From Campylobacteraceae bacterium (GTDB lineage: Bacteria; Campylobacterota; Campylobacteria; Campylobacterales; Sulfurovaceae), in contig JALVTH010000030.1 of the NCBI GenBank assembly GCA_027036015.1, positions 1 to 40,891 on the forward strand: a stretch of 40,891 nt of DNA, given 5' to 3'. Below the pieces are notes generated by a model. The model was not told where the DNA came from. It searched no databases and worked only from the letters and a program-made list of their open reading frames with translations. The position numbers were made by a program, and so were the translations under genes. Shown piece by piece: positions 6,790 to 17,502 of this stretch (position 1 is its first letter; each line of letters opens with the position of its first letter).

Positions 6790-6866
6790 TGGCGCGGCGG
6801 ACGGGACTCGAACCCGCGACCTCCTGCGTGACAGGCAGGCATTCTAACCGGCTGAACTACCGCCGC
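6790..6866 (-). tRNA. tRNA-Asp (GTC), copy 1 by coordinate
   Basis: Complete cloverleaf of 77 bases with encoded CCA. The acceptor stem is GCGGCGG/CCGCCGC with G as discriminator. The anticodon stem-loop is CCTGC-CTGTCAC-GCAGG, giving anticodon GTC. It is the last tRNA of the seven-gene transcript and identical in sequence to the copy at 7180-7256. Confidence 0.97.
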
Positions 6867-6897
6867 AAGGTGAGAAATTTTAAATATAAGTTGGAAG

Positions 6898-6973
6898 TGG
6901 TGGTCGCTAGTGGACTCGAACCACTGGCATCCACCTTGTAAGGGTGGCGCTCTACCAACTGAGCTAAGCGACC
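6898..6973 (-). tRNA. tRNA-Val (TAC), copy 1 by coordinate
   Basis: 76-base tRNA with encoded CCA. The acceptor stem is GGTCGCT/AGCGACC with A as discriminator, and the anticodon stem-loop is CCACC-CTTACAA-GGTGG, giving anticodon TAC. It is identical to the copy at 7279-7354. Only five bases separate it from tRNA-Lys upstream, where the other cassette has tRNA-Glu. Confidence 0.97.
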
Positions 6974-6978
6974 TTAGG

Positions 6979-7054
6979 TGGTGACCCGTCTTGGATTCGA
7001 ACCAAGGGCCCACTCCTTAAAAGGGAGTTGCTCTACCGACTGAGCTAACGGGTC
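6979..7054 (-). tRNA. tRNA-Lys (TTT), copy 1 by coordinate
   Basis: 76-base tRNA with encoded CCA. The acceptor stem is GACCCGT/ACGGGTC with A as discriminator, and the anticodon stem-loop is ACTCC-CTTTTAA-GGAGT, giving anticodon TTT. It is identical to the copy at 7459-7534. Confidence 0.97.
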
Positions 7055-7057
7055 TCA

Positions 7058-7082
7058 CTTATTGGGCTTAAAGCCCAATAAG
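7058..7082. other. Perfect 10-bp inverted repeat between tRNA cassettes
   Basis: CTTATTGGGC and GCCCAATAAG pair perfectly around a 5-base loop. It lies three bases upstream of tRNA-Lys copy 1 in transcription direction, next to a G-rich (plus strand) tract at 7084-7098. There is no U tract on either side, so I read it as an RNA processing hairpin in the tRNA precursor rather than a standard terminator. Confidence 0.5.
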
Positions 7083-7163
7083 CGGGGGAGGGGGATGGAG
7101 TTTATTACTCCTAATATTTTTTCTTTTATCTACTAAAGGAGGAGGATTAAACTTTTTACTTTC

Positions 7164-7164
7164 G
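7164..7164. other. Only mismatch between the two Asp repeat units
   Basis: The 115-base units 6752-6866 and 7142-7256 (tRNA-Asp plus 3' flank) differ only here (G) versus 6774 (T). The position is in the loop of the shared 3' hairpin. Confidence 0.8.
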
Positions 7165-7179
7165 ATTCATAAAAAGTGG

Positions 7180-7256
7180 TGGCGCGGCGGACGGGACTCG
7201 AACCCGCGACCTCCTGCGTGACAGGCAGGCATTCTAACCGGCTGAACTACCGCCGC
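7180..7256 (-). tRNA. tRNA-Asp (GTC), copy 2 by coordinate
   Basis: Identical to the tRNA at 6790-6866: 77 bases, encoded CCA, anticodon GTC. It ends the promoter-proximal Lys-Glu-Val-Asp cassette and is followed by the same A/T hairpin as the other copy. Confidence 0.97.
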
Positions 7257-7278
7257 ACACCATATTGCATTTTTCAAG

Positions 7279-7354
7279 TGGTGGTCGCTAGTGGACTCGA
7301 ACCACTGGCATCCACCTTGTAAGGGTGGCGCTCTACCAACTGAGCTAAGCGACC
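7279..7354 (-). tRNA. tRNA-Val (TAC), copy 2 by coordinate
   Basis: Identical to the tRNA at 6898-6973: 76 bases, encoded CCA, anticodon TAC in the loop CTTACAA. Four bases separate it from the tRNA-Glu gene upstream. Confidence 0.97.
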
Positions 7355-7358
7355 ACTT

Positions 7359-7434
7359 TGGCGACCCTTAGAGGATTTGAACCTCTGTGACTGTGCGGAA
7401 AACACAGCATCCTTGGCCACTAGATGAAAGGGTC
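7359..7434 (-). tRNA. tRNA-Glu (TTC)
   Basis: 76-base tRNA with encoded CCA. The acceptor stem is GACCCTT/AAGGGTC with G as discriminator, and the anticodon stem-loop is CTGTG-TTTTCCG-CACAG, giving anticodon TTC. It is the only tRNA-Glu in the window; the second cassette lacks it. Confidence 0.97.
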
Positions 7435-7458
7435 TTCTTAAAAACCCCAAATGACCAC

Positions 7459-7534
7459 TGGTGACCCGTCTTGGATTCGAACCAAGGGCCCACTCCTTAA
7501 AAGGGAGTTGCTCTACCGACTGAGCTAACGGGTC
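7459..7534 (-). tRNA. tRNA-Lys (TTT), copy 2 by coordinate
   Basis: Identical to the tRNA at 6979-7054: 76 bases, encoded CCA, anticodon TTT. It is the first gene of the seven-tRNA transcript; the promoter lies about 20 bases upstream. Confidence 0.97.
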
Positions 7535-14493: not shown

Positions 14494-15504
14494 ATGAGCC
14501 AAGTTTATGCCGCTTTTAAATCGATAGGAGCTTATGCTCCAAAAAATGTTTTAACAAACCAAGATTTAGAGAAAATGGTAGATACTTCTAATGAATGGAT
14601 TATTAAAAGAACGGGAATTAAAGAGCGCCGAATTGCCGATAAAGATGAAGTTACAAGTGACATGGGAGCAAAAGCAAGTGAGCTTGCAATTAAAAGAGCC
14701 CAAATTAAAAAAGAAGAGATAGATTTAATTTTATGTGCGACAGTAACTCCAGATTATTTTAATATGCCTTCAACTGCTTGTATTATTGCTAATAAACTTG
14801 GCATTGCAAACGTTCAAGCATTTGATATTAGTGCAGCTTGTAGTGGCTTTGTTTATGCTCTTTCAATTGCTAAAGCCTTTGTTGAATCAGGGATGAAAAA
14901 AAATGTTTTAGTAATTGGTGCAGAAAAATTTAGCTCAATTGTAGATTATACTGATAGAACAACATGTATTTTATTTGGCGATGGTGCTGGAGCTGCAATT
15001 ATTAGTGCAACAAGTGATAAAGAAGAAGCAATTATTGATATTAATGCAAGTGCAAATGGAGCTTATTGGGATTATTTAATTACTCCATCACCAGGATCAG
15101 TTAATCCTGCAAGTAAAGAGGCAATTGAGCAAGGTTTACAATATGTTAAAATGAGAGGAAATGAAACTTTTAAATTAGCTGTTAAAACATTAACACAAGA
15201 TGTAAAAGATATATTAGAAAAAAATAGTATTAAAGCTAATGAAATTGATCATTTTATTCCTCATCAAGCAAATTATCGAATTATTAAAGCAGTTGGCGAT
15301 GCACTTGGCATGAGCGAAGAGCAAGTTGTGTTAACGATTCACAAATATGGCAATACTTCAGCAGCATCAATTCCTATGGCAATTAATGAGTTATATGAAA
15401 GTGGAGGATTAAAATATAAAGAATTAATGCTGTTAGATACTTTTGGCGGGGGTCTTACTTGGGCAAGTGCCTTAATTCCTTTTGCTGGAAAAGCAAATGG
15501 CTAA
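14494..15504 (+). CDS. fabH: Beta-ketoacyl-ACP synthase III
   Basis: Condenses acetyl-CoA with malonyl-ACP to start type II fatty acid synthesis. The thiolase-fold catalytic triad is complete: C116 in DISAACSGFVYAL, H257 in FIPHQANYRI and N287 in KYGNTSAASIP. At 336 residues it is slightly longer than the E. coli enzyme. AAAGGA lies seven bases before the ATG. In many bacteria fabH follows plsX; here it follows guaB. Its stop codon overlaps the ATG of the following RNA methyltransferase gene by eight bases. Confidence 0.95.
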   Translation: MSQVYAAFKSIGAYAPKNVLTNQDLEKMVDTSNEWIIKRTGIKERRIADKDEVTSDMGAKASELAIKRAQIKKEEIDLILCATVTPDYFNMPSTACIIANKLGIANVQAFDISAACSGFVYALSIAKAFVESGMKKNVLVIGAEKFSSIVDYTDRTTCILFGDGAGAAIISATSDKEEAIIDINASANGAYWDYLITPSPGSVNPASKEAIEQGLQYVKMRGNETFKLAVKTLTQDVKDILEKNSIKANEIDHFIPHQANYRIIKAVGDALGMSEEQVVLTIHKYGNTSAASIPMAINELYESGGLKYKELMLLDTFGGGLTWASALIPFAGKANG

Positions 15505-16408
15505 GCCCTCTCTTGAAGATTTTAAAGAAAGACTTGAGCTTATTCAACCTAAACTTTTTGAAGCGCTTAAAGAAAAAAAGCGTTTTTTCTCTTTTCGAAC
15601 TAACCTTCATAAAACAACGCCAAATGAAGTTATAAGCCTTTTAGAAAGAGAAGGATACTCTCCAAAAAAGGTAGATGGCTTTGAAAATGCTTTTATTTTA
15701 CCGATAGAAGAGAGAAAAAAAATTACAAAAAGTAGTGCCTATACAAGCGAGCTTATTTACATTCAAAATCTCTCTTCTATTTTTGCAGCTGAAGCCTTAG
15801 ATATTCAAAAAGAAGATTGGGTTTTAGATTTAGCAGCAGCTCCAGGTGGTAAGAGCCTTATTTTTAGTGAAAAAGCTCAAAAAGTTAGTGCAGTTGAGCC
15901 TAATAAAGAGCGTTTCTTTCGAATGAAACGCAATTTCAAGCAAAAGGGTGCAAAAAATATTCAAACTTATAATAAAGATGGGCGATTTGTTTATAAAAGC
16001 TGTCCAATGTGGTTTGATAAAGTTTTTTTAGATGCACCATGCTCTTCTGAAGTACATATTGAACTTGATAAAGGGCTTACTTGGTGGAGTTTGCGCCGCA
16101 TACATAAATTTGCAAAGTTACAAAAAGAACTTATTATTTCTGCTTTTGAATCATTAAAAAGTGGAGGTGAGATGATATATGCCACTTGCACTTTTGCTCC
16201 AGAAGAGAATGAAGCCGTTATTGATTTTTTATTGCAAAAATATCCAAATGCAACATTACTTTAAATTGAACATAATTTGCCAAATAGCTTTCATGGACTT
16301 TTAAGTTGGCAAGGGCAAGCATTTAATAAAGAGGTGCAAAAAGCACTCCACGTCATTCCTCAAGATGCTTATAGCGGCTTTTTCTTGGCAAAAATAAAAA
16401 AGTTATAA
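15497..16408 (+). pseudogene. RsmB/NOP2-type RNA cytosine-C5 methyltransferase with in-frame stop
   Basis: SAM-dependent m5C methyltransferase of the RsmB/Sun/NOP2 family, expected to modify rRNA or tRNA. The catalytic core is intact: SAM-binding LDLAAAPGGKS, C182 in DAPCSSE and C231 in YATCTFAPEENE. An in-frame TAA at 16262-16264 ends the product after 255 residues. The same frame then continues open for 47 codons to TAA at 16406 and reads IEHNLPNSFHGLLSWQGQAF...SGFFLAKIKKL, which looks like the normal family C-terminus (GFF.AKI.K). So the gene seems truncated by a nonsense change. ATG 15497 is the likely start (GGAAAAG upstream); an earlier TTG at 15482 is unlikely. The shortened protein may still fold. 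Confidence 0.8.
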
Positions 16409-16424
16409 TATAATTAGCGTTCTC

Positions 16425-16447
16425 TTACAACTTTTAAGGAGTTGTAA
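16425..16447 (+). promoter_or_regulatory. Hairpin enclosing the ribosome site of the oxygenase gene
   Basis: TTACAACT (16425-16432), loop TTTAAGG, and AGTTGTAA (16440-16447) form a perfect 8-bp stem. The Shine-Dalgarno TAAGGAG lies in the loop and first stem bases, and the last stem base is the A of the start codon. Such a fold could limit translation initiation. Confidence 0.4.
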
Positions 16448-17109
16448 TGGTCCAAATTTCTGAGCAAATTTTTGCTTTAAAAGAGATTTGGGATATGGAT
16501 TTTGAAAAATTTCCATTGGCTTCTTTTTATCAAAAATATCCTTTTTTAATTTACGAAAATCTTTTATCAAAAGAAGGGTGTACAAAAATTATTGATTCGC
16601 TAAATAAAAAAGAAGATTACAAAGCAAGACTCATTACAAAAGGACTTGATGAGGAGATAAGAAAGACAACATTACATCAGCCAACAAAAAAGATACGAGA
16701 TATGTTTGAAACTATTATTAACGCTAAAAAAGCTGAAATAGAGCGTTTTTTTAACGTTTTGCTTACAAGTGGCAGCGATATTCAAATTCTTGAATATAAA
16801 GAGGGTGGTTTTTATAAACGGCATGCAGACAATGCTAGTGAAATATATAAAAATAGAAAGTTAATCAATTATAAACTTATAGCACCACAAAGAAAGATTA
16901 CAACTTTATTTTTTTTAAATGATAATTTTGAAGGGGGTGAAATTGAGATTTCTGATGTACGATATAAAGATGGAAGTAAAGTCATTTTTAAACCAAAAGC
17001 TGGGCAAATGATAGTTTTTCCAAGTCATGGACTTTTTGCTCATGAAGTAAAAAAAGTAAAAGGCAACAGATTTGCTATAGTAAAATGGTGGAATGGATTT
17101 GAAGGATAG
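16447..17109 (+). CDS. 2-oxoglutarate/Fe(II) oxygenase, prolyl 4-hydroxylase-like
   Basis: Probable non-haem iron dioxygenase of the P4H superfamily, using 2-oxoglutarate and oxygen to hydroxylate an unknown substrate. The iron-binding triad can be traced in the C-terminal half: HxD in YKRHADNAS, then the distal histidine in FPSHGLFAHEV, with an arginine or lysine in GNRFAIVKWW expected to bind 2-oxoglutarate. TTLFFLNDNFEGGEIEI matches the family beta-strand between them. The N-terminal 90 residues are more variable. No signal peptide. The start has AAGGAG six bases upstream, inside a hairpin. It lies between two apparently broken genes but is itself intact. The target, protein or small molecule, cannot be read from the sequence. 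Confidence 0.75.
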   Translation: MVQISEQIFALKEIWDMDFEKFPLASFYQKYPFLIYENLLSKEGCTKIIDSLNKKEDYKARLITKGLDEEIRKTTLHQPTKKIRDMFETIINAKKAEIERFFNVLLTSGSDIQILEYKEGGFYKRHADNASEIYKNRKLINYKLIAPQRKITTLFFLNDNFEGGEIEISDVRYKDGSKVIFKPKAGQMIVFPSHGLFAHEVKKVKGNRFAIVKWWNGFEG

Positions 17110-17111
17110 TT

Positions 17112-17502
17112 ATGAAATTTTCAAAAAATTCAAAGTGTCCTTGTGGCAGTGGTAAAAAGTATAAAATATGTTGTTTTAGATTACACAAAGGTCTTTTAGC
17201 CAAAAATGCACTTGAGCTTATGAAAAGCAGATTTAGTGCTTATGCTGTTGGCGATGCAAACTATATTATAAAAACGACCCATAAAAGCTCCATACCACTA
17301 TGAATCAGATAAAGAGCAATGGATTCAAAGTATCAAAGAGTTTGCAAAAAGCAATTTTAAAAAACTTGAAATTTTAGATTTTATTGATAAAGAAAAAGAG
17401 GCTATTGTTGAATTTAAAGCTTATATTGATGATTATGTAATGCATGAAAAAAGCTATTTTTTAAAAGAAGACAAGTGGTATTATGTAAAAGCAATAGAGT
17501 AA
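17112..17502 (+). pseudogene. YchJ-type (UPF0225) SEC-C protein, frameshifted
   Basis: The first frame encodes a SEC-C zinc motif (CPCGSGKKYKICC) and the start of the YchJ/UPF0225 domain (LMKSRFSAYAVGDANYIIKTTH), then stops at TGA 17301-17303. The rest of the domain continues in the next frame from about 17299: YESDKEQWIQ..., VEFKAYI, HEKSYFLKEDKWYYVKAIE, ending at TAA 17500-17502. The combined product of about 129 residues matches the E. coli YchJ pattern (SRFLKENGQWYYIDG) without its second SEC-C motif. One extra base around 17295-17298 explains it. Function of the family is unknown; SEC-C motifs bind zinc. It starts two bases after the oxygenase stop, with AAGGAT as ribosome site. Confidence 0.8.

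Follow-up and report, generated by a model that had tools for sequence, protein, structure and literature searches.

In the window, a complete contig of 40,891 nucleotides from a draft genome of 1.69 Mb in 79 contigs, a gene for an RNA (cytosine-C5) methyltransferase of the NOP2/RsmB-F type is interrupted by an in-frame TAA. As this stop was found in none of the relatives examined, the case is most likely one of plain gene disruption or of an error in the draft assembly, rather than a new biological mechanism, and the finding is ordinary whether mutation or error lies behind it. The frame starts with ATG 15497 (+ strand), runs for 255 codons to TAA 16262-16264, continues with 47 sense codons and ends at a second TAA (16406-16408), which amounts to 303 codons from ATG 15497 to position 16405 with the internal TAA counted. 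The initial annotation had described an ochre codon splitting an RsmB/NOP2-type enzyme with an open frame of 47 codons behind it, and both points were borne out, with PF01189 aligning on both sides of the stop. A second broken gene, of the YchJ type, at 17112-17502 had been missed there. The features of this region are:

14494..15504, + strand: 3-oxoacyl-ACP synthase, presumably FabH-like as named from its sequence, overlapping the methyltransferase start by 8 bases
15497..16264, + strand: truncated NOP2/RsmB-F-type RNA (cytosine-C5) methyltransferase ORF, 255 codons (PF01189, E 2.2e-36)
16262..16264, + strand: in-frame TAA, missing from all examined homologues covering the place
16265..16408, + strand: 47-codon remnant corresponding to the family's C-terminus (last core strand), plus TAA 16406-16408
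16447..17109, + strand: 2OG-Fe(II) oxygenase, apparently intact (PF13640, E 5.7e-17, profile positions 2-97 of 98)
17112..17502, + strand: YchJ-type gene (SEC-C plus YchJ_M-like, PF17775), frameshift near 17280-17300

The truncated ORF by itself reached 125.9 bits against PF01189 (Pfam cut-off 27), and a score of 135.7 bits was obtained with an alignment across the internal TAA. In the whole-genome search, profile positions 3-198 of 199 aligned over this one stop, and the window match was the only one with an internal stop among 11 over-cut-off PF01189 matches in 10 genomes. It was also the lone PF01189 match in its own genome, and a redundant paralogue was therefore rejected. The top NCBIfam match of the truncated ORF was TIGR00446 (E 1.5e-47), under its cut-off, and all its NCBIfam matches to the equivalogs for RsmB, RsmF and the tRNA C49 methyltransferase stayed below cut-off, as did every NCBIfam match of an intact relative (L009). 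Both C181 and C230 (residue 1 = window 15500), which we take to be the catalytic pair formed by the motif IV and VI cysteines of the NOP2/NSUN/RsmB-F family, lie 5' of the stop, as had been claimed, and are conserved in all compared sequences (eight aligned sequences and a set of 28). The motif AAAPGGK at 112-118 (same numbering), presumably the SAM-binding motif, is likewise invariant in eight aligned sequences. Nearest named homologues, among the best 80 of at least 548 relatives, were Campylobacterota MAGs with 66-71% identity (L052-L059).

The tail beyond the stop is the family's real C-terminus and more than a chance open frame, as the initial annotation had supposed: the PF01189 alignment crosses the TAA, the alignment with relatives extends almost to the second TAA, no gap against them occurs in the tail except at their last residues, and no further stop lies within the 47 codons. 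A model of the read-through protein, with TAA read as Q, led to a mean pLDDT of 95.5 and contained tail strands at 264-266, 284-286 and 295-302 (block means 96-98). Its top Foldseek matches included the m5C methyltransferases 2yxl, 1ixk, 2frx and 3a4t; the solved relatives in the NOP2/NSUN/RsmB-F family (PF01189), namely 2yxl, 1ixk, YebU/RsmF (2frx and 3m6w) and aTrm4 (3a4t), showed TMq values of 0.73-0.85 to the model. With these enzymes the reconstructed protein shares the catalytic domain, AAAPGGK, the two conserved cysteines and, in the remnant, the C-terminal strand; unlike them, the window ORF ends without reaching the last core strand. As the ORF ends at 255 while the model has the final strand of this fold at 295-302, a protein lacking residues 257-303 would not form the complete catalytic fold, and from the loss of this strand together with the two shorter ones the short product is probably unstable and does not fold. 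The earlier suggestion that the shortened enzyme could be partly active was based on the position of the cysteines; these are indeed kept, but with the last core strand lost from the model any partial activity appears doubtful.

To see how far the stop is shared, 21 loci were compared, 17 of which entered the codon alignment (the window's own, 15 reaching the place, and L020, which ends before it); the alignment omitted L016, L017, L018 and L021, weak matches with E between about 1e-4 and 1e-3. All 15 relatives carry a sense codon at the position of 16262-16264, coding for proline (nine), glutamate (three), alanine, aspartate or asparagine (one each), with CCA as seven of the nine proline codons and GAG, GCA, GAT and AAT also present. 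A second set, the best 80 of at least 548 GTDB relatives, shares some genomes with the first; one of its loci (L065) ends before the position, and none of the 79 that cover it stops there. The end of the protein lies 60-94 residues past the PEENE motif in 76 of these 79, and the other three leave their contigs 46, 57 and 64 residues past it. In the window, 16 residues separate PEENE from the TAA, or 64 positions when the TAA and the tail are counted. Homologues ending at the same place had been named as the observation that would speak against an interrupted gene; none was found, and among the homologues examined the stop appears private to this genome. These data also bear on a functional shortening, in which the lineage would have given up the C-terminus while keeping a working enzyme of 255 residues. 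Such an enzyme would keep both conserved cysteines, AAAPGGK and all 50 strongly conserved body columns, but the last modelled strand (295-302) and near-invariant residues fall into the lost part, none of the 79 covering homologues is shortened, and the sequence of the tail is maintained, making this explanation very unlikely.

For the age of the stop, pairs with 63-76% body identity were compared, leaving out the partial loci L011, L012 and L020. The mean tail identity was 44.4% in the 10 pairs with the window and 45.3% in the 34 other pairs (mean body identity 69.3% and 67.5%, respectively), and the tail scores as coding in the methyltransferase frame. The tail has thus undergone no measurable decay, and the stop is either very young or not real; with normal tail identity, no extra stop and no internal gap, a real mutation would have to be very young. 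Strongly conserved columns, defined by agreement of no fewer than 24 of 27 homologues, numbered six in the tail and 50 in the body; the window deviated at one of the former (R285 to H) and at none of the latter, which may be a weak hint of lost constraint.

A recent inactivating nonsense mutation, leaving a young pseudogene of an RNA m5C methyltransferase, has a probability just short of even. The mutation would have created TAA 16262-16264, translation would end after 255 residues, and the product, deprived of the final strand of the methyltransferase core, would probably be degraded; the base would then be real in the cell, the product inactive and its loss tolerated. A private disabling change with a homologous remnant behind it, as seen in the sequence, fits a pseudogene, and recent loss is favoured by this privacy, by the homologous tail modelled within the fold and, weakly, by the change of R285. 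Further evidence comes from the codon itself, as two changes are required to convert CCA, the commonest codon in relatives, into TAA, so that a single wrong base is insufficient and a real mutation is favoured over an error. This argument is weakened by the other codons found in relatives, since the ancestral codon may not have been CCA. The distribution of the gene cuts both ways. No over-cut-off PF01189 match was detected in 21 of 31 genomes from the wider family and order, nor, by our own count, in 17 of the 24 with good quality, and such frequent absence favours loss; the gene is kept in all five other good-quality genomes of the window's genus, so that tolerance of the loss nearby lacks support, and the three of 11 genus genomes without it are only 71-82% complete. 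A tail otherwise conserved as in intact pairs also weakens the recent-loss reading.

About equally likely as a very recent gene loss is a consensus or assembly error, with the gene intact in the cell and the TAA present only in the 79-contig draft; we place its probability likewise just short of even. Here the undecayed tail and the retention of the gene in all five other good-quality genomes of the genus are what would be expected. The window genome has a completeness of 100 and a contamination of 0.04, which speaks against an error, though neither figure measures base accuracy, and the two changes needed from CCA argue in the same direction. A further point for an error is the frameshifted YchJ-type gene, which follows on the same contig and strand at a distance of about 1 kb, with the apparently intact oxygenase in between. 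Its halves lie in different frames (PF17775 positions 2-29 and 26-98) and it also gave a two-piece tblastn match, and 22 of its 23 best matches in relatives are open over 134-181 residues. The remaining match (L038, on C36 of relative G047) has a TAG after 51 residues. The broken YchJ suggests that the locus is decaying or its consensus is poor, rather than that TAA 16262-16264 is in any way special; decay of one locus would suit recent loss. An old operon of the methyltransferase with the oxygenase and YchJ lacks support, as neither was found beside it in 26 loci, most with only 1.5-3 kb of flank. A match to the FabH-like gene was detected near the methyltransferase in seven of the 26 loci searched.

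Of the 1.69 Mb genome, 435 kb were surveyed for broken genes (423 ORFs), with candidates chosen by eye from listed ORF pairs. The homology test was limited to genes that have a counterpart in the sampled parts of G010 (334 kb) or G003 (320 kb), where 74 and 64 queries matched, respectively, and with this coverage the rates are rough. A histidine kinase (L181:1742-2404, corresponding to G000:C23:21742-22404) is split by an in-frame TAA at L181:2162, located between a HisKA-like part below the Pfam cut-off and the HATPase part. A gene for an MBL-fold protein (L184:4660-5528) is probably frameshifted within seven consecutive A; its Pfam match covers the first half only and the case is less certain. 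The tally of the 435 kb is three confirmed and one probable broken gene of mixed kinds. The histidine kinase and the probable MBL-fold frameshift add weight to a consensus error, and mixed kinds of broken genes, also expected from a noisy consensus, weaken recent loss. Against an error, such a tally in 435 kb is not extreme: the 334 kb of G010 contained one doubly hit gene (L206:6500-6900, which has an internal stop as well as a frameshift when compared with its homologue from the window genome), and in the 320 kb of G003 no broken gene was accepted. If four lesions were scattered at random over 435 kb, two would fall this close with a chance of about 3%, a rough, after-the-fact figure that counts the uncertain MBL-fold case, and it leans to a shared local cause, either a single decaying locus or a stretch where the consensus is poor.

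Several survey candidates were not accepted. The pairs in L169, L170 and L176 were dropped as ordinary adjacent genes by their look, and L177 11712 and L179 19018 after viewing of the sequence, as the alignment reached beyond the likely start on its upstream side. Judged by eye from the rows only, further candidates were discarded, namely L185 18312, L208 10231, the rows of L218 and L225 (probably antisense ORFs), the rows of L214 (a gap at a start within the alignment) and L176 1764 (a gap inside one frame); row 11228 of L225, with 89% identity and one stop, is the least sure of them. One pair in L171 was not carried into the tally. Directly behind a dnaE-like gene lies a lipoprotein-like open frame (L172:18173-18610) in which the first 76 codons include neither ATG nor GTG nor TTG; it has no Pfam match, and its start is perhaps damaged.

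Compared with known cases, nothing distinctive separates the window gene from ordinary bacterial pseudogenes by nonsense mutation or small indel, with which it shares the one in-frame stop, the homologous remnant downstream and the restriction to a single genome. Low-coverage assembly is documented by Cooley and Wright (2024; PMC11017572) to produce spurious frameshifts and internal stops, which also speaks for a consensus error, and the internal stops and frameshifts scattered over this draft genome resemble such spurious pseudogenes. Residual translation from broken genes, termed 'pseudo-pseudogenes' (Feng et al., 2022, as cited in PMC13345370), offers another likeness, in that some protein might still be made from a broken gene. 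A private stop with an undecayed remnant beside a second broken gene is a caution that reads should come before biology. If real, the stop would add one more case of RNA m5C methyltransferase loss to a group with 21 of the 31 searched genomes already lacking an over-cut-off PF01189 match.

Of the three causes proposed by the initial annotation, a recent nonsense mutation and a consensus error survive, and programmed readthrough is left with no positive support. Readthrough or recoding of the UAA would yield some full-length enzyme, and the coding score of the tail, its identity to relatives and the second in-frame TAA in the histidine kinase could be explained in this way. The stop is, however, conserved in none of the 79 GTDB loci and none of the 15 relatives, and among 337 sampled ORFs with a length of 150 aa or more, 207 are terminated by TAA, which led to the rejection of an alternative genetic code. 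ARAGORN recovered all 38 Rfam tRNA matches (150 of 161 first-look candidates were scored), and none of these 38 genes carries a TTA, CTA or TCA anticodon reading UAA, UAG or UGA, so that a suppressor tRNA was rejected; the set is incomplete, since anticodons GAT (Ile) and TGC (Ala) were not found among the 38 either. An RNA signal was rejected as well, as folding at the stop was no better than in shuffled sequences (z +1.47; 184 of 200 shuffles gave an equal or better fold). Readthrough of this one stop is slightly less probable still than a functional shortening, and a lineage in which UAA is usefully read through, giving both the methyltransferase and the histidine kinase (L181:2162) in short and full-length forms, is very improbable. 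The tRNA search also revealed seven tRNA genes at window positions 6790-7534 (- strand) in an apparently partly duplicated array, with Asp, Val and Lys twice each and Glu.
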